DNA of 47,839 nucleotides from Alphaproteobacteria bacterium. GTDB taxonomy: Bacteria > Pseudomonadota > Alphaproteobacteria > Micropepsales > Micropepsaceae. A program made the position numbers and the translations under genes. A model generated the notes under the pieces. That model ran no database searches and was not told where the DNA came from. It saw only the letters and a program-made list of their open reading frames with translations. The first letter of the stretch is position 1, and every line of letters begins with the position of its first letter. The stretch is from positions 1 through 47,839 of the forward strand of contig JAEUMK010000036.1 in NCBI GenBank assembly GCA_016792565.1, written 5' to 3'. This document shows positions 39,062 through 47,839 of the stretch, piece after piece.

Positions 39062-40552
39062 TTATTCGATGATGTAGCCGCCGCTCGGCTGCTCGCCGGC
39101 GGGGATGGTGCGCGTGGTGTAGGTCGCGTTGGGCTGGCCGTTCAGGATCGCCTGCGCGTCGGTGGCGGGCACGAAGCCGGTCGTCGGCATCGAGAGTTCC
39201 TTGCCGGACACCGGGTCGACCAGGATCGCCGAGACGATGATGACGAGCTCGGTCTGGTTCATCTGGTAGTCGCGGCTGCGGAACAGCGCGCCCAGGACCG
39301 GGAGGTCCTTCAGGCCGGGATAGCCGTCGATGCTCTGCTTGTAGTCGTCGCGCAGCAGGCCGGCCATCATCATGGCGCCGCCGCTGGGCATTTCGAGCGT
39401 CGTCTCGGCGCGCCGGACCCGCAGACCCGGAATGGTGAGGCCGGGCACGGTGATGGCGTTGCCGTTGGGGTCGCGGATCGTGTTGCCGGGCACGTTGAGG
39501 GCGCCTTCGGCGGTCAGTTCGCTGACCTCGGAGGAGACCTTCAGGCTGATGCGGCCCTCGCTCAGCACGACCGGGGTGAAGGCGAGGCCGACGCCGAACG
39601 GCTTGAACTCGATGCGGATATTGCCGCTGTCGTCGATGCCGGTCGGGACCGGGAACTCGCCGCCGGCCATGAAGTTGGCGGTCTCGCCCGAGATCGCCGT
39701 CAGGTTCGGTTCGGACAGGAGGCGCAGTACGCCGGCGCGCTCCATGGCGCGGACCGTGCCTTCGACATTGTTGTAGCCGTCGGTCCTGAGGTCGGTGCCG
39801 CCCGTCGGGTTGTAGGGAACCGGCGGCAGGATGCCGCCCGAGGCCGACCCTGTCCCGAGGGCGCGACCGAGCAGGCTGAACTCGTTGGTCGAGGAGAGGT
39901 TGATCGGCACGCCGCCGGCCAACGCCATCGCTTTCAGGTCGATGCCCAGCTGCTTGGCGACGACGCGCTGCATCTCGGCGACGCGGACGCGGATCATCAC
40001 CTGCTCGCGGCCGGAGATGGAGATCATGTTCAGGACTTTTTCCGGCGCGCCGACATAGCGGGCGGCCAGCTCGCGGGCCTGCTCGGCGACCGATGCCGAG
40101 GGGGCGATGCCGGTGAGCACGATGTTGTCGTTGACGCTCTCGGCGCGGATCGAGGCGCCGGGGAAATGCTTGGCGAGGATGTCGCCGAGCGAGCCGATGT
40201 CGCGCTCGACCCGGATCTCCAGGTTCAGCAGCTGCTTGCCGGAGTCGGAGAAGAAGAAGGCGTTGGTCTGCCCGACCGTGAGGCCGAGGATGTAGATGCG
40301 CCGCGGCGTGCGGACGATGGCATCCACGATCGCCGGATTGGAGACCAGGACGTCGGCCGCATCGGCCGGCAATTCGATGATCGCCGCCTTGTTGAGGCCG
40401 AGCACGATGCGCTCGCTCGCCGGCCGGTCGCCGCCGTCGCGCACCGCCACGGTCTTGGAGACCGGGCCGCCGTCATTGCCGGCCGCCGCCGGCAGGGCGC
40501 CGGCCAGCACCGCGACAGAGGCGCAGAGGAGAAAATTCGCTATGCCACGCAT
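39062..40552 (-). CDS. cpaC: Tad pilus outer-membrane secretin CpaC/RcpA
   Basis: A 496-residue secretin. A signal peptide (about residues 1-24, MRGIANFLLCASVAVLAGAL) precedes the pilus-formation N-terminal domain (about 35-120, RIVLGLNKAAIIELP and GLTVGQTNAFFF), a BON-like region (SVNDNIVLTGIAPS) and the secretin pore domain (about 230-450) with GVLRLLSEPNLTAISGE and the closing LPVLGALFRSRDYQ motif. It forms the multimeric gate for Flp fibres. The ATG at 40552 puts it eight bases after cpaB. Confidence 0.96.
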   Translation of the reverse strand: MRGIANFLLCASVAVLAGALPAAAGNDGGPVSKTVAVRDGGDRPASERIVLGLNKAAIIELPADAADVLVSNPAIVDAIVRTPRRIYILGLTVGQTNAFFFSDSGKQLLNLEIRVERDIGSLGDILAKHFPGASIRAESVNDNIVLTGIAPSASVAEQARELAARYVGAPEKVLNMISISGREQVMIRVRVAEMQRVVAKQLGIDLKAMALAGGVPINLSSTNEFSLLGRALGTGSASGGILPPVPYNPTGGTDLRTDGYNNVEGTVRAMERAGVLRLLSEPNLTAISGETANFMAGGEFPVPTGIDDSGNIRIEFKPFGVGLAFTPVVLSEGRISLKVSSEVSELTAEGALNVPGNTIRDPNGNAITVPGLTIPGLRVRRAETTLEMPSGGAMMMAGLLRDDYKQSIDGYPGLKDLPVLGALFRSRDYQMNQTELVIIVSAILVDPVSGKELSMPTTGFVPATDAQAILNGQPNATYTTRTIPAGEQPSGGYIIE

Positions 40553-40560
40553 GTCGCGCC

Positions 40561-41412
40561 TCACTGGTTTCCTGCCGCCTGGACTTGGCTGACTTCGCCG
40601 AAGCGGATGATCGTGATGGTGCTGCTCGCCTTCTTGGGCGCGCCGGGCTGGCCGGCGGGCACGCGAAGGGCGGTGATCGGGGTGTCGGCGCCGGTCAGGC
40701 CGCGCAGGGCGAGCGAGAGCGTGCCCGCCTCTCCGCCCTGCTGCAGCAGTTCGGCTTCGGCCGGGCTGACCTCGAGCGTCGCCGTCTTGGCGGTCGGCAT
40801 CGCCGTCTCGCCGCCCTCCACGGCCTCGCTCTGGCCGCCGGAGTCGCGGAAGCTCTGGCCGACCGCGAGGACGCGGACGTTCTGGAGCAGGGTGCGCGAG
40901 ATGACGCGCTTGGAGCCGCCCTCGGTGTCGCCTTCGACCGTCGCGGTCATGACGACGTCGACCCGGTCGTTCGGCATGATGAAGCCGCCGGCGCCGGTCT
41001 CCTCGCGGATTTCGACCGACACGGCGCGCATGCCGGGCGACAGCGCGGCGGCCATGAAGTTCGCGCTTTCGGCGCGCACCAGCTTGGAGGTCGTCGCGGG
41101 CTCGCCGGCGAACAGCACCGTGCGGGCGACCGCGCCGATCATGGATTCCATGCCCGCCGGATTGGCCTCGCGGGTGATGAACGGCGAGGACAGCGCGTCC
41201 TTGGGCCATTTCTGCCACTTGAGGTCCTCGGCGAGGACGGTGTGGCCGACATCGATGTCGCGCGCGGCGACCAGGACTTCGGCCATCTCGACGGCCGGAC
41301 CGGCCGCCGCGACGGCCTTGCTCTTGCCGCCGAAGAAGCCGCCGAGAAGAAGCGCAGCCATGCCGGCAGCTCCCAACGCAACGATGAGGACGAGGATGCG
41401 GATCGGGCTCAT
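40561..41412 (-). CDS. cpaB: Tad pilus assembly protein CpaB/RcpC
   Basis: A 283-residue protein with an N-terminal membrane anchor (residues 5-26) and a periplasmic SAF domain (about 43-110: EVLVAARDIDVGHTVLAEDL, then WPKDALSS), followed by the CpaB-specific domain with SPGMRAVSVEIREETGAGG and PNDRVDVVMT. It helps assemble or stabilise the secretin. It lies between cpaA and cpaC in the operon. Confidence 0.95.
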   Translation of the reverse strand: MSPIRILVLIVALGAAGMAALLLGGFFGGKSKAVAAAGPAVEMAEVLVAARDIDVGHTVLAEDLKWQKWPKDALSSPFITREANPAGMESMIGAVARTVLFAGEPATTSKLVRAESANFMAAALSPGMRAVSVEIREETGAGGFIMPNDRVDVVMTATVEGDTEGGSKRVISRTLLQNVRVLAVGQSFRDSGGQSEAVEGGETAMPTAKTATLEVSPAEAELLQQGGEAGTLSLALRGLTGADTPITALRVPAGQPGAPKKASSTITIIRFGEVSQVQAAGNQ

Positions 41413-41440
41413 GCGGACAAATCTCCCGGGCGAGTGCGGG

Positions 41441-41950
41441 TCATGACGAGAAGGCCGCGAGGAAGAGCGGCGTCTTGGGCAGGACGATCAGGGCCCCGAT
41501 GCCGAGCGCGACGCCGTAGGGCAGGCCTGCCTTGGGGCGCAGCAGCTCGTTGAGGAAGGGCAGGCGCGCGGTCATCGCCGGAAGGGGGGCGCGGCGCAGC
41601 CAGAGAATGGCGATCGCGAAGGCGCCGCCGACCAGGGCGAACACCATGCAATAGAGAAGGATGAAGTGCGGCCCCATCCAGAGCGCCGCGGCGGCCAGCA
41701 GCTTGGCGTCGCCGCCGCCGATGAGGTTGCCGGCGAAGAGGCCCATGCCGATGACGAGCGCCGCCAGGCAGACGAGGGCGTGCCAGCCGATTTCGCCGAG
41801 CGGCATCGCCGCCAGCGCGGCGGCCAGCGCGAAGGCCGCGGCCAGGGCGGCCGGAATCCAGTTGGGGATCTTGAAGCTGACCAGGTCCGTCACGGCGCCG
41901 GCGACGAAAAGCGCCGGGCAAGCGACAAGAACGACGGCGTCCAGAAACAT
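41441..41950 (-). CDS. cpaA: Prepilin peptidase CpaA/TadV
   Basis: A 169-residue inner-membrane aspartyl peptidase of the short TadV type (A24 family, no methylase domain). Catalytic aspartates are Asp22 (AGAVTDLVSFKIPN) and Asp81 (LIGGGDAKLL). It has about five membrane helices. It should cleave the leaders of Flp and of the TadE/TadF pseudopilins. The ATG at 41950 is preferred; a GTG two codons earlier is in frame. It is the first gene of the main minus-strand operon, with a CtrA-like box about 90 bases upstream. Confidence 0.95.
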   Translation of the reverse strand: MFLDAVVLVACPALFVAGAVTDLVSFKIPNWIPAALAAAFALAAALAAMPLGEIGWHALVCLAALVIGMGLFAGNLIGGGDAKLLAAAALWMGPHFILLYCMVFALVGGAFAIAILWLRRAPLPAMTARLPFLNELLRPKAGLPYGVALGIGALIVLPKTPLFLAAFSS

Positions 41951-42024
41951 AGCCACCCCGAAAGCGGCGCGGGCCCGGCCCGCGATGCGTCCACGCCGCG
42001 CGGATCGCGGCCTGTCGACAAAGA

Positions 42025-42054
42025 TTAAGGGGCGGCCTCTTAAGCGAGGCTTAA
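42025..42054 (-). promoter_or_regulatory. CtrA-type boxes upstream of cpaA
   Basis: TTAA-GCGAGGC-TTAA (42040-42054) is an exact TTAA-N7-TTAA match to the CtrA consensus. A third TTAA sits at 42025. The sites are 75-105 bases before cpaA, the first gene of the operon. In related bacteria pilus genes are CtrA targets; binding here is inferred. Confidence 0.6.
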
Positions 42055-42162
42055 ATAAATCCTTCCCAATCCTTTACGCGATCACCGAATGTCGAACGAT
42101 CAAGGCGTTGGGCGGTTAACGGACGTTTACGAATGGCGGGCGCGCCTCGCCGCAGCCGGCGG

Positions 42163-42203
42163 CGCAAAAGCAAAAGGGCCGCGGGGAATGCCCCGCGGCC
42201 CTT
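42163..42203 (-). terminator. Strong intrinsic terminator after flp
   Basis: AAGGGCCGCGGGG and CCCCGCGGCCCTT form a perfect 13-bp stem with an AATG loop (42174-42203). On the minus strand it is followed by TTGCTTTTGC. It lies 25 bases after the flp stop and separates the abundant pilin transcript from the cpa operon. Confidence 0.9.
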
Positions 42204-42228
42204 GCATCCGGCCGAAGCCGGATGGCGC

Positions 42229-42390
42229 TTAGATCTCGGCGGCGACGTTCGTGAACACCGCGTTGAGGTCGATACCGAGGGCGCGCACGCCGACGATGAT
42301 GGCGACCGCGATGAAGGTCGCGATCAGGCCGTACTCGATGGCCGTCGCACCCGATTCGTCCTTGAAAAAGCGCGAAACAAACTTGCTCAT
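42229..42390 (-). CDS. flp: Flp/Fap type IVb major pilin
   Basis: A 53-residue prepilin. A short basic leader MSKFVSRFFKDESG ends in the processing Gly14; the mature protein begins ATAIEYGLIATFIAVAII, with the Flp Glu5-Tyr6 pair (Glu19, Tyr20) and a single hydrophobic helix, ending NVAAEI. CpaA should cleave after Gly14 and the machine polymerises it into adhesive pili. GGAGG precedes the ATG. It has its own transcript: a separate upstream region and a strong terminator. Confidence 0.98.
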   Translation of the reverse strand: MSKFVSRFFKDESGATAIEYGLIATFIAVAIIVGVRALGIDLNAVFTNVAAEI

Positions 42391-42699
42391 GTTGAGCCCT
42401 CCGTTGAATGTCACCACAGCACCAGTTCAATCGGCGGGTTTTGGTTTGCTCGTCGCCGTGAACAACGCGACATTACGCCCGATGCGTTTCCGCCCGCTTA
42501 AAAGACGCGGTAAACGGCGCATTTACCGCAAAAAACTTTCCCGGAGCGCCCGCGGCCGTCCGTAGACGGAGGAGTTGGGGGAAATTCCTGACGGACCGCT
42601 AAGAGATCGGGCGCGGCGTTCAGACTTCGTTCAATCCTCAGCGCCAAACTGCGCCCGAACGCCGCGCCTGTCCGCGCGGCCGCCATCCGGAGTCCGCCG
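42391..42699. promoter_or_regulatory. Divergent control region of flp and the pilus N-domain gene
   Basis: This 309-base gap holds no gene. It contains the flp ribosome site at its left end and an inverted repeat GCGGTAAA-N7-TTTACCGC (42507-42529), about 120 bases before flp, which resembles a dimer operator. A TTAA half-site lies at 42498. No clear -35/-10 pair was identified for either gene. Confidence 0.5.
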
Positions 42700-43092
42700 A
42701 TGAAACGTCTCAGCCTTATCGCCGCCTTCGCGGGTCTCGCCGTCAGCTCGGCCGCGGCCGAGGATCTCTCGGTCGCCAAGGACCAGTCCAAGGTGGTCAA
42801 GCTGACCAGCCTCGCCGCCACCGTGGTCGTCGGCAATCCCGAGATCGCCGACGTGGCGATGCAGGACGGGACCACCGCCTTCGTCACCGGCAAGGGCTTC
42901 GGCACCACCAACGTCATCGCGATGGACGCCGAGGGCCGCCAGATCGCCAGCTTCCGCGTCGTGGTCACCGCGAACGCCGACCGCGCCGTGACGCTCTTTC
43001 GCGGCGGCCAGGCGGTGACGCTCTCCTGCGCCCCGCGCTGCGAGGCGGTCGCCGTGGCCGGCAACGCGGCGCCGAGCGTCGCGGCGCCCTGA
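42700..43092 (+). CDS. Stand-alone pilus-formation N-terminal domain protein
   Basis: A 130-residue periplasmic protein with a signal peptide (cleavage near Ala20) and one domain like the N-terminal domain of CpaC secretins: DQSKVVKLTSLAATVVVGNP, EIADVAMQDG, FVTGKGFGTTNVIAMDAEG. It has no pore domain. Two cysteines at Cys110 and Cys114 (SCAPRC) could pair. It is divergent from flp. It probably contacts the secretin or the CpaB/CpaD ring, but its function is unproven. Confidence 0.85.
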   Translation: MKRLSLIAAFAGLAVSSAAAEDLSVAKDQSKVVKLTSLAATVVVGNPEIADVAMQDGTTAFVTGKGFGTTNVIAMDAEGRQIASFRVVVTANADRAVTLFRGGQAVTLSCAPRCEAVAVAGNAAPSVAAP

Positions 43093-43127
43093 CGCCCCGG
43101 CCGGCGCCGCCGGCCTTCCTGAAACGA

Positions 43128-43162
43128 AAAGAGGGCGGGGAATTTCCCCGCCCTTCTTCTTT
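43128..43162. terminator. Bidirectional intrinsic terminator
   Basis: AGGGCGGGGAA and TTCCCCGCCCT form an 11-bp stem (43132-43154). It is followed by TCTTCTTT on the plus strand and by a T-containing tract on the minus strand. It serves the plus-strand pilus N-domain gene and probably the convergent tadG-like gene. Confidence 0.8.
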
Positions 43163-43236
43163 GACCGCCTGGAGCGCATCCCGCGGCACGCCGCCGCACG
43201 GCGCAGGATCCGGCGCGTACGCCGGGCCGCGCGCCG

Positions 43237-45096
43237 CTACCTCGCGACGCGCAGGTTCGAGATCTCGACCGCGATCTGGCGGAAGACCGTCTGGAGATCG
43301 CCGCCGTTGTCGGCCAGCTTGGCGTGCGCCGGGCTGGTCGCGCAGTTGGTCAGCACGTTCACGACATCGACGTTGTCGGAGATGTCGAAGCCCACCGTGT
43401 AGACGATGACGCCCTCGGCCTTCATGCCCGCGCACAGCGCCGCCGCCTGGGCGAACGGATCGCCGTTGGTGGCATTGCAGTTGATCTTGTCGTTGGCGGA
43501 GCCCGAGCCGGAGCCGGCGTCCGCGGCGATGACGCCGTTGCAGTAGGGGGTGTTGAACTCGCCGTCGGTCATCAGGACGGCGATCTTCAGCAGATCGTCG
43601 GCGCCGTAGGCGGCCGGCTGGCTTTCGGACGGCCAGAGATAGCCGAAATCCGGCGACAGCATGTACCAGCCCCAGGCGATGCCGATCTGGCCGGCGGTCG
43701 AACCGGCCGCCGCCAGGGCGTTGATCCGGCTGGTCAGCAGCGTCTTGTCGGTGGTCAGCGGCACGATGGTGCTGGCCAGGCAGGTATTGCCCGAGGGCGC
43801 CGGATAGACGCGGCCGAGGAAGCGCGTGCTCGGCGCGGCGTCGGTGTATTCATCGCCGCCGACGCGCTCGCTGACGCAGGTGCTGATCCGGTGGACGCGG
43901 GTGGCGGCGCTGGCGTTGGTGAAGCGGAAATACTCGCAGCCCGCGACCGTGCAATGGGCGGCGCCGCCCGAGCTGTAGGTGCCGTAGTTGGCGCCGATCG
44001 CCCCGGCCAGCGAGAAGGTGGTCGCCGTCCGGTTGGCGACCGTGAAGGTCGTGTTGGCGGCGCTGTTGATCTGCGTGCCGGTGCCGGTGGCGCCGGTGAT
44101 GAAGATGTTGTCGCCGTTGTTGAAGGCGTGCGCGGCGCTGGTCGTCACCACCATGCCGCAGTCCGAGACGAGACACCGCCTGATCGTACCGCCCGAGGAG
44201 TAGCTCGTATAGCCTGAACCGTTGACGCCGTTCAGGCGGAAGCGGTTCGCGTCGACGCGGGTGATCGTATAGGCGCGATTGTTGATCTGCGTCATGCCGC
44301 TGACGCCGCTGATATAGACGAACTGGCCGGTGCTGAAGCCGTGGGCGTTCGAGGTGATGACCACGGGATTGGCCCGGGTCGCGCCGGTGATGGTCTTCGA
44401 CGATCCGGTCGTCCACGCCGTCGAGGCGATCGAGGCGGGCGCGGCGACCGGGCCGCGTACGGCGTCGGCGTAGGCGCCGACGTTCACGGCGTTCGCATAG
44501 GGAATGAGCGCCAGCTTGGAATATTGCGGGTCCGACGAGGACTGGCCGTCCCAGACCACGATGTCGACGAGGTCGGCGGCGGCGGTCTTCAGGTCCGCGA
44601 TGCGCGAGCCGGCCATCGAGCCCGTCACGTCGAGAACCAGCGAGACCTCCAGGCTGTTCGAACTGCGCCGGACTTCGGCTTCCGCCGTCACCGACAGCTC
44701 GTTGTAGCCGATGATGCCCATGATCAGCGTATCGACGGTGGCGTCGGCGGCGACCACGACCGCGTCGTCGCCGTACTGGATGCGCAGGGCGCTCGGGCGG
44801 CCGATCTCGTCGTCGGGATAATTGGCGAGGAAGTAGGCGTTCGCCTTGGCGGTGACCTCCGCCGAGGTCAGGCCGACCTGGCCGCCGAGAGCCAGCGCCG
44901 TCGCATCGAGCGCCGACGACAGGCGGTTCTTGACCAGAAGGGCGCGGCTGAAGTCGACCGCGAGGCCGCCGAAGGCGAAGAACGGGATCGCCGCCAGGCC
45001 GAACATCATGGCGATATTGCCGGCGCGGTTGCGGCGGAACCGTCCCAGGAAGGACGGACCGACGCCAAGGCGGCGAATGAACGGCAGAAGGCTCAT
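43237..45096 (-). CDS. tadG: TadG-like von Willebrand factor A protein with inserted beta repeats
   Basis: A 619-residue protein. An N-terminal TadE/TadG-type segment (RNRAGNIAMMFGLAAIPFFA, membrane helix about 28-50) is followed by a vWA domain whose metal site begins LDVTGSMAGS (155-164, DxTxS) and resumes at VLMTDGEFN (508-515) and VIVYTVGFD. Between them, residues about 228-385 hold two tandem repeats resembling phage-type FCCH beta repeats, each with a YSSGG end and followed by a cysteine. It is presumably anchored in the inner membrane facing the periplasm as a minor Tad component or adhesin. GGGGAG precedes the ATG at 45096. It is divergent from tadE. Confidence 0.9.
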   Translation of the reverse strand: MSLLPFIRRLGVGPSFLGRFRRNRAGNIAMMFGLAAIPFFAFGGLAVDFSRALLVKNRLSSALDATALALGGQVGLTSAEVTAKANAYFLANYPDDEIGRPSALRIQYGDDAVVVAADATVDTLIMGIIGYNELSVTAEAEVRRSSNSLEVSLVLDVTGSMAGSRIADLKTAAADLVDIVVWDGQSSSDPQYSKLALIPYANAVNVGAYADAVRGPVAAPASIASTAWTTGSSKTITGATRANPVVITSNAHGFSTGQFVYISGVSGMTQINNRAYTITRVDANRFRLNGVNGSGYTSYSSGGTIRRCLVSDCGMVVTTSAAHAFNNGDNIFITGATGTGTQINSAANTTFTVANRTATTFSLAGAIGANYGTYSSGGAAHCTVAGCEYFRFTNASAATRVHRISTCVSERVGGDEYTDAAPSTRFLGRVYPAPSGNTCLASTIVPLTTDKTLLTSRINALAAAGSTAGQIGIAWGWYMLSPDFGYLWPSESQPAAYGADDLLKIAVLMTDGEFNTPYCNGVIAADAGSGSGSANDKINCNATNGDPFAQAAALCAGMKAEGVIVYTVGFDISDNVDVVNVLTNCATSPAHAKLADNGGDLQTVFRQIAVEISNLRVAR

Positions 45097-45346
45097 CGGA
45101 CAGGCTCCCCGAATGCGGCGGGGCCGAAGGGAGGCCGCGCCGACTGTTCTCTTTACAAGGGTGCGGTGAACGAAAAGTAAAAGATAAAATTCGATGTAAT
45201 ATGGATTAGATCGTGTTTTACGCAACTTTGAATGGCATTGAAGATGGTAATGGTGACCGGATGTTAGAGTTAATCCAAATAAACTAAAGACAAGACGCTT
45301 TCTTTTATTGTATTGATCCGGCGTTTATTGGGGGACATCGACTCTC
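45097..45346. promoter_or_regulatory. A/T-rich divergent promoter region of tadG and tadE
   Basis: No gene fits here. Bases about 45175-45325 are strikingly A/T-rich against the GC-rich flanks, with runs such as AAAAGATAAAATT and TTTCTTTTATTG. This suits a divergent promoter region or a site for nucleoid proteins. No confident -35/-10 pair could be assigned. Confidence 0.45.
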
Positions 45347-45916
45347 ATGGCTTGGCGGATCGGAAAACGGACACCTCGCGGGCGACGCCTGCTGCGCGAT
45401 ACGCGCGGCTCGGCGGCGGTCGAATTCGCGATGCTGGCGCCGGCCTTCTTCGGCCTGCTCTTCTCGATGTTCGAGATCGGCATCACCTACACGGCCGACG
45501 CGCTGCTGCAGGACGCCATCAACGACACCGCGCGCATGATCCGCACCGGCCAGGCGCAGGGCGCCGGCATGACGCGGCAGCAGTTCCGCGACGAGGTCTG
45601 CGACCGCGTCGACGTGCTGCTGGCCTGCGACCAGCGCCTCCAGATCGACGTGCGGACGTTCAACCGCTTCGCCAACGCCCAGTTCGAGGACCCGCTCGAC
45701 GGCAACGGCAATTTCCGCGACGACTTCCGCTACGACCCCGGCACCGCCTGCTCGATCGTCGTGGTCCGCGGCTTCTACGCCTGGAGCCCGATCACGCCGG
45801 GGCTCGGCGAGTTCATGGCGACCATGAGCGGCGGCGAGCACCTGATCCAGGTGACGGCCGCGATCCGCAACGAACCGTACGCGTCCGGCCAGTCCGGCTG
45901 CGCGAGCCTCGGGTGA
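45347..45916 (+). CDS. tadE: TadE family pseudopilin
   Basis: A 189-residue protein. A basic leader ends in DTRG (Gly21), followed by SAAVEFAMLAPAFFGLLF, the TadE prepilin-like helix with Glu26 at mature position 5. The rest is a periplasmic domain of about 140 residues with three or four cysteines (DEVC, LLAC, GTAC, SGC). It should be processed by CpaA and act as a minor pilin or assembly factor. A second, similar gene follows after 26 bases. Confidence 0.93.
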   Translation: MAWRIGKRTPRGRRLLRDTRGSAAVEFAMLAPAFFGLLFSMFEIGITYTADALLQDAINDTARMIRTGQAQGAGMTRQQFRDEVCDRVDVLLACDQRLQIDVRTFNRFANAQFEDPLDGNGNFRDDFRYDPGTACSIVVVRGFYAWSPITPGLGEFMATMSGGEHLIQVTAAIRNEPYASGQSGCASLG

Positions 45917-45942
45917 GTCCCGTCATGGGCAGGGGAACGACG

Positions 45943-46518
45943 ATGTCTTCTCGCATTCAATCGGCGGCGATCGGCCTGCTGGCCGGCTTCGGCGGCCTGG
46001 TGCGCCGCCTGCGCGCCGACCGCTCGGGGCTCTCGGCGATCGAGTTCGCGCTGATCGCGCCCTTGATGCTGACCTGCCTGGTCGGGTCGGTCGAGGTCTC
46101 CAACGGCATGCTGGCCAGCCGCAAGGTGACGCAGACCACCTCGACCATCGCCGACCTCGTGTCGCAGGCGACGGCGGTGACGAACAACGACATCGCCGAC
46201 GTCTTCGCCGCCGGGCTCGCCGTGATGCAGCCGATCGACGCCTCGGCGATGCGCATGCGCATCACCTGTATCGAGGCCGACATCAACGGCGTGACGCGGG
46301 TGGCGTGGAGCGACGGGCGCAACATGCCGCCACGGGGAGTGGGAACGGCCATCACGGTCCCGGGCGGCATCGTGCCGCCGGGCGGCGGGCTGATCTTCGC
46401 CGAGATCGAGCTCAACTATGTTTCGAATTTCGGCCGCTTCCTCACCGAGGGCATCACGATCACCGACCGCTTCTACCTGCGGCCCCGCCGCTCGGTGACG
46501 GTGACGCGGATTTCGTAA
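45943..46518 (+). CDS. TadE/TadF-like pseudopilin
   Basis: A 191-residue protein. A longer basic leader ends RADRSG (Gly29), then LSAIEFALIAPLMLTCLVGS with Glu34 at mature position 5, the prepilin-like signature. The periplasmic part includes SRKVTQTTSTIADLVSQA, typical of TadF-like proteins. It probably is processed by CpaA and partners TadE. AGGGGA precedes the ATG at 45943; an ATG at 45925 is also in frame. It lies directly downstream of tadE on the same strand. Confidence 0.88.
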   Translation: MSSRIQSAAIGLLAGFGGLVRRLRADRSGLSAIEFALIAPLMLTCLVGSVEVSNGMLASRKVTQTTSTIADLVSQATAVTNNDIADVFAAGLAVMQPIDASAMRMRITCIEADINGVTRVAWSDGRNMPPRGVGTAITVPGGIVPPGGGLIFAEIELNYVSNFGRFLTEGITITDRFYLRPRRSVTVTRIS

Positions 46519-46583
46519 GGCGCGGCCCTGCCGCGCGCCTGCTCTGCCGGACGCCAACACGGCCTTGTGAGCGGGAAACGGGG

Positions 46584-46599
46584 TTTACGGGACCTTAAC
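46584..46599 (+). promoter_or_regulatory. Near-consensus CtrA box upstream of the secreted unknown
   Basis: TTTA-CGGGACC-TTAAC differs from TTAA-N7-TTAAC by one base. It lies about 100 bases before the next ATG and 65 bases after the tadF-like stop. Confidence 0.45.
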
Positions 46600-46697
46600 G
46601 CGCGGCGCGGCACACACGGCAGGTCACGGACGGCTCGCTCGGGCGGGCCGAACCTGTTATGCACCGGCCTCTGGACCGGGTGTGTTCGCGAGGAAAT

Positions 46698-47372
46698 ATG
46701 GCTCTCAAAACCCGCGCCTTGGCCGCCTTCGCGGCGGCCTGTCTGTCGGCGGCTTTCCCGATGGCGAACGCCGCGGTGGCCGCCAAGGCCGAGGCGGCCT
46801 GCGTCAAGGGCCCGGACGAGGTCGCCTTGCAGATGCGCACCGTGCAGACCGATCTCATGGTCGCGGCGCTCTCGTGCAGCGCCTCGGCCCGCTACAACGA
46901 ATTCGTCAAGGCGAACCAGCCCGTGCTGATGTCGGCGCATGGCCAGCTCTCGAAGTTCTTCGACAAGAAGCGCGGCGGCCAGAAGGCGCTGAACGCCTTC
47001 ATCACCAAGCTCGCCAACGATTCCTCCAAACGCAGCGTCGCCGACATCGCGCGCTTCTGCCAGGAGACCGGCTGGCTCTACGACGCGATCCTCAGCCCGA
47101 CGCGCGGCGATCTCGTCGCCTTCATCGGCCCGCTGCTGGTCGCCCAGCGGCACGGCTTCCAGTCCTGCGAGCCGCGCCCGTCCTATCTGGTCCTCGGCCC
47201 CACCGGACCGACCGAGGTCGCCGCCGCGACGCCGGCGCCGGCCGCTGCCCCGGCCGCCGCACCTGCCGCCGCACCCGCCGCTGCCCCTGCCTCGGCTCCC
47301 GCCGCCGCGCCGGCGGCCGTGGCCGGCGTGCCGACACCCCTGCCGAAGCCGGCGGTCGTCGCCTCGCGCTGA
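46698..47372 (+). CDS. Secreted four-cysteine protein with Ala/Pro tail, unknown function
   Basis: A 224-residue protein. A signal peptide (about residues 1-25) precedes a helical domain with four cysteines at 35, 60, 121 and 157, matching conserved alphaproteobacterial proteins of unknown function (CVKGPDEVALQMRTVQTDL, VAALSCSASARYNEFV). The C-terminal ~50 residues are an Ala/Pro repeat ending KPAVVASR. It may be a periplasmic partner of the Tad system because of its place after tadE/tadF, but this is inference. GAGGAA precedes the ATG at 46698. Confidence 0.82.
   Translation: MALKTRALAAFAAACLSAAFPMANAAVAAKAEAACVKGPDEVALQMRTVQTDLMVAALSCSASARYNEFVKANQPVLMSAHGQLSKFFDKKRGGQKALNAFITKLANDSSKRSVADIARFCQETGWLYDAILSPTRGDLVAFIGPLLVAQRHGFQSCEPRPSYLVLGPTGPTEVAAATPAPAAAPAAAPAAAPAAAPASAPAAAPAAVAGVPTPLPKPAVVASR
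47221..47325. repeat. Imperfect Ala/Pro-coding repeat tract
   Basis: Units around GCCGCCGCACCC recur and encode APAA-type repeats in the tail of the secreted four-cysteine protein. The copies differ in third positions, so this is an old coding repeat. Confidence 0.7.
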
Positions 47373-47487
47373 AATCCGGGCCGGGCGGCCCCGAAGCCCT
47401 TCCTCTGCCGATGGGCCGCGCCCTGCGGCCATGCCGTCATGCAAATGCACGCAACGCGCATGATCTCGCCCTCACGGCCGGGCCTGA

Positions 47488-47593
47488 CCTGGAGCCCTTT
47501 CCGTTCCGATGAAATCGGAACGGGGCTCCAGGCTCTTGATTGAGCATCGTCTTTTTGAAGAACCGGCATCCACGTCTTCGGATGTTGCTCTAG
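47488..47593. repeat. REP-like intergenic hairpin element
   Basis: A long inverted repeat (CCTGGAGCCC...GGGGCTCCAGG, inner arms CCGTTCCGAT/ATCGGAACGG around GAA, 47488-47532) is followed by CTTGATTGAGCATCG, then AACCGGCATCCAC, and ends TTGCTCTAG. This layout resembles the repeated elements found many times in rhizobial genomes. The rest of the 47373-47696 gap shows no gene; only a terminator lies at its right end. Confidence 0.65.
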
Positions 47594-47641
47594 CCATAAG
47601 GAAAGAAGGCGCGATCCGCTATGAACGGCTTCGCTCCAGCA

Positions 47642-47671
47642 GCAAAAAGGGCGGCCCATCGGGCCGCCCTT
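47642..47671 (-). terminator. Intrinsic terminator after the OmpA-family gene
   Basis: AAGGGCGGCCC and GGGCCGCCCTT form an 11-bp stem with an ATC loop. On the minus strand it is followed by TTTTTGCTGC. It lies 25 bases after the stop of the partial gene. Confidence 0.88.
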
Positions 47672-47696
47672 GCCGCATCCTCCGTGGGGAGGCTGA

Positions 47697-47839
47697 TTAC
47701 ATCGCCGAGCCGGTCAGGTCGATCGTCGCGCGGCGGTTCTGCGGCTCCTTCACGCCGGGGCCGGTCGGAACCAGCGGCTCGCTGAAGCCCTTGCCCGAGG
47801 TCGAAACCACGTCGCCGGGGACGCCGTTGGCGACGAGAC
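47697..47839 (-). CDS. OmpA-family protein, C-terminal part (cut by the window edge)
   Basis: The last 46 residues of a minus-strand gene are visible, read from 47839 to a TAA at 47697-47699. They include GKGFSEPLVPTGPGVKEPQN and then NRRATIDLTGSAM, the C-terminal segment of OmpA/MotB-type peptidoglycan-binding domains, with the NRR motif. The protein is probably outer-membrane or periplasmic and wall-bound. Its N-terminus and full size lie outside the window. A strong terminator follows. Confidence 0.85.
   Translation of the reverse strand, partial: LVANGVPGDVVSTSGKGFSEPLVPTGPGVKEPQNRRATIDLTGSAM

Follow-up and report, generated by a model that had tools for sequence, protein, structure and literature searches.

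Two tandem domains of the FCCH family lie between the halves of a split vWA domain in a minor pilin encoded in the window (i.e. the whole stretch of 47,839 nucleotides that was analysed), and this protein is, as judged from sequence, an orthologue of CpaL, the proposed Tad mechanosensor of Caulobacter crescentus (Charrouf et al., mBio 2025; PMC12607857). The two barrels of CpaL that were published without a family name would then be FCCH domains as well. The architecture is not new, because CpaL was already published with it; what is new is the FCCH name for the insert, together with a series in copy number. The name fills a region that was left without an identity in print and that sets CpaL apart, and it supplies solved template structures and domain boundaries for the CpaL insert. 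The natural series of zero, one, two and three barrels and the exact junctions show where removal of the arm least endangers the vWA fold, and one domain family connects pilus tips with phage tails. The features of the gene and of the locus are given in Table 1.

Table 1. Positions of the CpaL/TadG-type gene, its domains and the surrounding Tad genes (window coordinates; residues count from the Met start)
Feature	Position	Strand	Basis or remark
CpaL/TadG-type minor-pilin gene	43237..45096	-	619 aa, MSLLPFIRR...NLRVAR; Pfam Tad PF13400, VWA, E1_FCCH
Pilin-like module, residues about 24-145	44662..45027	-	Tad/TadE Pfam matches; AlphaFold2 helix and strands
vWA first half, residues 148-215	44452..44655	-	VIA-align to Mfa5, SpaC and RrgA vWA domains
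MIDAS DxTxS (D156, T158, S160)	44617..44631	-	aligned with L086 D160/T162/S164
MIDAS T467 and D511	43696-43698 (T467); 43564-43566 (D511)	-	aligned with L086 T470/D515
FCCH repeat 1, residues 234-304	44185..44397	-	Pfam E1_FCCH; local profile i-E 4.7e-37
Cys-x4-Cys after repeat 1 (C308, C313)	44158..44175	-	homologue alignment
FCCH repeat 2, residues 308-379	43960..44175	-	local profile i-E 8.5e-25; second Pfam stretch (insert alone)
Cys-x4-Cys after repeat 2 (C382, C387)	43936..43953	-	homologue alignment; junction comparison
vWA second half, residues 388-619	43240..43935	-	Pfam VWA; fold match
TadE-like minor pilin, divergent neighbour	45347..45916	+	Pfam TadE 6.2e-11; likely tip partner, CpaJ/CpaK-like
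Second TadE-like minor pilin	45943..46518	+	Pfam TadE 1e-7
Flp/PilA-like major pilin, 53 aa (MSKFVSRFFKDESGATAIEYG...)	42229..42390	-	by resemblance, no profile used
Tad machine: TadC, TadB, CpaF, CpaE-like, CpaD, CpaC secretin, CpaB, CpaA	33576..41956	-	

Identity of the repeats and of the protein that carries them

The protein of 619 residues was read from the Met codon at 45096, a start that fits the homologues (a TTG in the same frame lies further upstream in the list of open reading frames), and has DVTGS at residue 156 and TDGEFN at residue 510. Its N-terminal segment is Tad/TadG-like (PF13400, 1.8e-10, above the cut-off). The full MIDAS set of D, T, S, T and D is present and aligns with the positions published for CpaL; among 67 homologues D156, S160, T467 and D511 are invariant and T158 is kept in at least 90%.

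The preliminary description had placed two repeats of FCCH type at 43944-44415, inside a TadG-like vWA domain, and had likened them to phage structural proteins. The coordinates correspond to residues 228-385, reading frame and motifs are as claimed, and Pfam, a locally built profile, the AlphaFold2 model and Foldseek agree on the two repeats. Pfam E1_FCCH (PF16190) matched the whole protein with E-values of 1.9e-16 to 2.3e-16 (60.3 bits versus a curated cut-off of 29.5) and matched the excised residues 228-385 in two stretches (3.3e-18); the repeat borders given in Table 1 were set by the local profile. Both repeats have the pattern H-x-F...G...I-x-G...TQIN...YSSGG in common, and an alignment of their DNA gives about 64% identity. 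The likeness of the repeats and the conserved cysteines are far beyond chance. The kinship with phage structural proteins was borne out by a match of the insert to PHROG 584 'major tail protein' (4e-16), by annotated phage records and by viral models. Searched by sequence against the PDB, the insert matched the FCCH domain of UBA1 (4e-4), and its best match was chain 26dk_M (4.7e-7), named only 'Structural protein'. NCBIfam Ube1 was rejected as an assignment for the whole protein (TIGR01408, 13.6 bits versus a cut-off of 750).

An AlphaFold2 model built from 67 homologues had a mean pLDDT of 91.5 (about 97 in repeat 1 and 88-98 in repeat 2) and starts with a long helix at residues 24-71, followed by strands. 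Foldseek against the PDB returned two sets of matches: the E1 enzymes UBA6 and UBA1, with E-values from 4.8e-8 (UBA6) to 1e-4, and the vWA pilus adhesins SpaC and Mfa5. Against the isolated mouse FCCH domain of UBA1 (2v31), 88 columns were aligned at 2.6 A with 31% identity and a target TM of 0.60, and the top named matches among viral models included 'Ubiquitin-activating enzyme E1, FCCH domain containing protein' of uncultured phages. The insert was modelled with confidence in the context of the full protein, and its repeats are predicted to have the FCCH barrel fold. The vWA part (residues 143-619) gave VIA-align Z-scores of about 20 to Mfa5, SpaC, RrgA and GBS104, and the pilus-tip adhesins that it resembles comprise these four and PilB; VIA-align of the full model gave vWA matches only, which bears neither way on the FCCH match.

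The published CpaL has a pilin-like module, a vWA domain split into 148-203 and 384-626 and a MIDAS formed by D160, T162, S164, T470 and D515; between the vWA halves it has 'two tandem beta-rich domains', i.e. two barrels of six strands each, which had no strong match in Dali and are directed away from the MIDAS in the model (PMC12607857). In a protein of C. vibrioides DSM 9893 (L086), which counts 626 residues, the same five MIDAS residues are found at these very positions. From its species, length and MIDAS positions it is presumed to be CpaL; its full-length identity with the window protein is 47%, and E1_FCCH matched it twice (7.2e-27). The length, the MIDAS, the identity and the E1_FCCH matches of L086 are the reasons to consider the window gene a CpaL orthologue and the CpaL barrels FCCH domains. 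The word FCCH is absent from the CpaL paper (PMC12607857), and no paper linking FCCH with TadG or CpaL was found in a literature search that excluded subscription papers and preprints. The earlier statement that the fusion had not been described thus holds for the FCCH identity, which was not found in print, and falls for the split-vWA architecture, which was published for CpaL.

The Tad locus around the gene is complete: the machine genes matched the Pfam families T2SSF (twice), T2SSE, AAA_31, Pilus_CpaD, Secretin, RcpC and Peptidase_A24, and the two TadE-like genes begin just past the start of the CpaL-type gene, on the opposite strand. Beside the pilin gene (42700-43092, +) we found a small secreted-looking protein that consists of a T2SS/T3SS pilus N domain only (PF13629, 2.2e-22), a domain that also opens the CpaC secretin (39062-40552). 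Adjoining the minor pilins (46659-47372, +), a protein of 237 residues with a long PAAAPAAAPA tail had no Pfam match. A search with Rfam over 41000-47839 gave no matches.

Insertion point, copy number and distribution

FCCH copies, zero to three in number, occur at one insertion point and only in the CpaL-type clade of the Alphaproteobacteria. In a TadG tree that was built without the insert, all FCCH-bearing proteins fell within a single clade of 78 rows (SH-aLRT 99) that contains members with 0, 1, 2 and 3 copies, and the tree implies at least 6 changes in presence or absence and 11 changes in copy number. The insertion loop follows ...NVGxYADxVRGxxxAG and precedes C-x4-C-x-YxxF. The junctions of members with zero (...VRGTLTAG-RCDTPGCERYRF...), one (...VRGPIAAG-[FCCH]-ARCTKLGCKYYNF...) and two repeats (...VRGPVAAP...[FCCH]-IRRCLVSDC-[FCCH]-AHCTVAGCEYFRF...) agree, so that a survey of TadG homologues yielded one fixed point. 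The zero-repeat members of the clade include proteins of Bosea, Phenylobacterium, Hyphomonas and Pelagibius, and the basic pilin and vWA function can therefore do without the arm.

The four cysteines (C308/C313 and C382/C387) are conserved in 50 out of 50 two-repeat homologues. C382 and C387 are found in 94% and 97% of the 67 homologues, respectively, and have a counterpart in most zero-repeat homologues; the Cys-x4-Cys that follows the insert belongs to TadG itself. The Cys-x4-Cys after repeat 1 is absent from homologues with zero or one repeat. Read most simply, a unit of FCCH and Cys-x4-Cys was duplicated in tandem within TadG and thereby gave rise to copy 2. The repeats of copy 1 and those of copy 2 fall into distinct lineages (two-fold cross-validation correctly classed 103 of 106 repeats from TadG and 29 of 30 from phages), and the duplication should therefore be old. 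Independent duplication of the repeat in each genome was ruled out, the two lineages being separate across species. A CpaL-type TadG with three repeats (L117:3992-6073; r1+r2+r2), with a Cys-x4-Cys behind each, points to a separate, later duplication of copy 2. The majority of single repeats are about as close to copy 1 as to the phage repeats; those of Brevundimonas are of the copy-2 type and were probably reduced from two. The mean pairwise identity is 0.40-0.42 for the repeats versus 0.46-0.60 for the vWA parts, and this somewhat greater variation fits contact with a ligand as well as a relaxed constraint on a spacer.

E1_FCCH was found in 57 of 67 CpaL-like proteins, a sample that was fetched by similarity and is biased towards the query, and in 38 of 200 Caulobacterales genomes, mostly as paired matches within frames approximately 610-690 aa long, some of which were read from end to end. 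Across the class Alphaproteobacteria the domain was recovered from 14 of 386 genomes; apart from the genome of the window itself, TadG was the carrier in two of the 14, and the other frames that were read encode virion-type proteins. The 397 genomes taken across the phylum gave four matches outside the class, among which one baseplate J-type protein, one tail/stabilisation-type protein and one short frame resembling a tail-tube protein, and no TadG with FCCH was seen outside the Alphaproteobacteria in this set. Within the order of the window, 12 of 96 genomes had E1_FCCH: as two repeats in TadG (L003, L004), as one repeat in TadG (L034, L037, L038), and in prophage-type tail proteins of another genus. 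The tested TadG of most other genomes of the family lacked FCCH, among them the TadG of two congeners (L005, L006), and a plasmid search with the TadG protein gave no match.

Several further observations were made along this survey. Long FCCH frames of 833-928 aa (L033, L036, L039-L042 and L044) were found in several genomes that belong to a single genus within the window's family; the frames that were read look like phage tail or stabilisation proteins, which suggests prophages. One locus in the Caulobacterales (L070; G356 C5:262500-268500) contains two CpaL-type two-repeat TadG genes in tandem; matches in G515 and G486 suggest similar pairs, which may represent alternative pilus tips. Finally, a contig labelled Candidatus Sulfopaludibacter (Acidobacteriota; L109, CAMDAC010000023.1) encodes a TadG very near that of Hyphomonas (L085), and is probably a misbinned alphaproteobacterial contig.

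Origin and putative role of the inserted arm

The phage FCCH repeats are up to 56% identical to the TadG repeats over 57 residues, and in annotated phage records the domain is found in tail tubular B, stabilisation and head-closure proteins and in baseplate J proteins. On 71 aligned columns, holding all TadG repeats as one group was not rejected (p-AU 0.778); a free quick tree of 71 columns placed two single repeats among the phage repeats. Recent transfer was not persuasive on grounds of composition: there is a slight drop in G+C in repeat 1 only (0.63 versus 0.68-0.69 elsewhere in the gene; GC3 of repeat 1 0.89) and none in repeat 2.

By analogy with known tip proteins, the insert probably constitutes a structural arm that positions the head of the pilus tip or widens its contact surface, a reading that we favour over a ligand binder or a purely mechanical element. 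CpaL was modelled at the pilus tip with CpaJ and CpaK, and its deletion lowered piliation, raised holdfast output and gave partial resistance to phiCbK (PMC12607857); elsewhere, TadG was modelled as the backbone of tip complexes (PMC12075869). The window protein would likewise be a tip subunit that caps a Tad (type IVc) pilus, and the tip of an extended pilus fits better, by analogy with CpaL, than the broader site 'in or beyond the periplasm' that was suggested at first. The vWA domain with its complete metal site would serve as an adhesive or force-sensing head, and the two FCCH barrels, each followed by a Cys-x4-Cys, would form a stiff arm on that head, possibly pinned by disulphides between the paired cysteines. 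Such an arm may act as a spacer or wing, and lineages may tune its length by gain, duplication or loss of barrels.

It seems unlikely that the FCCH pair is instead a module for specific ligand binding (to a surface polymer, to another cell or to a glycan of prey or host) that was captured from a phage tail protein. The family is present in phage tail, head-closure and baseplate proteins and in prophage-type proteins of the window's order, the phage profile scores the first TadG repeat and the majority of single repeats almost as highly as their own profile does, and the arms inserted in the vWA domain of the tip adhesin RrgA are proposed to contact ligand (PMC7893114). However, the annotated phage carriers are not receptor-binding fibres, and the genome of the window holds no other FCCH copy that could have been the donor. 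With still less conviction, one may imagine that a phage tail domain was captured once by an alphaproteobacterial Tad tip protein and duplicated with its Cys-x4-Cys clasp, and now forms the arm by which a mechanosensing head contacts a surface or receptor, with the copy number (0-3) setting its reach or specificity.

A putative mechanical element, in which barrels and cysteine pairs would tune the opening of the vWA domain by force and touch no substrate, is also rather improbable, for homologues without repeats have the rest of the protein in common; it would agree with the invariant cysteine pairs that come with the inserted unit, with the mechanosensor role proposed for CpaL and with the dependence of PilY1 vWA mechanosensitivity on a disulphide (PMC12607857). 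A neutral mobile cassette under relaxed constraint, with no role of its own, is highly improbable, despite the shifts in presence and copy number on the tree, given the complete conservation of the four cysteines in the two-repeat homologues and the 40-42% mean identity that is retained between diverged rows.

Comparison with known systems

The window protein has its closest parallel in CpaL, with which it has in common the pilin-like N-terminus, the split vWA domain, the same MIDAS residues and a tandem pair of beta domains that separates the vWA halves. The genes differ in location: cpaL is an orphan outside the Tad cluster, whereas the window gene lies inside it, beside the two TadE-like genes. 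The repeat family is shared with the phage FCCH proteins (the phrog_584 major tail protein, the tail tubular B, stabilisation and head-closure proteins and baseplate J), but there the repeats decorate virion proteins that have no pilin or vWA part. The likeness to the E1_FCCH domain of UBA1 and UBA6 (the first catalytic cysteine half-domain) concerns the sequence profile and the barrel fold; unlike these enzymes, TadG has no adenylation or other E1 parts, its Cys-x4-Cys sits in a TadG context, and its FCCH domains would be extracytoplasmic, whereas those of UBA1 and UBA6 are cytosolic. RrgA, GBS104, SpaC and Mfa5 resemble the protein in their vWA domain with a MIDAS, and RrgA and GBS104 also have arms inserted in the vWA domain, which makes them a parallel in function (PMC7893114), although theirs are hairpins and loops and not FCCH barrels. 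In export and anchoring, these four adhesins differ from a Tad tip protein.
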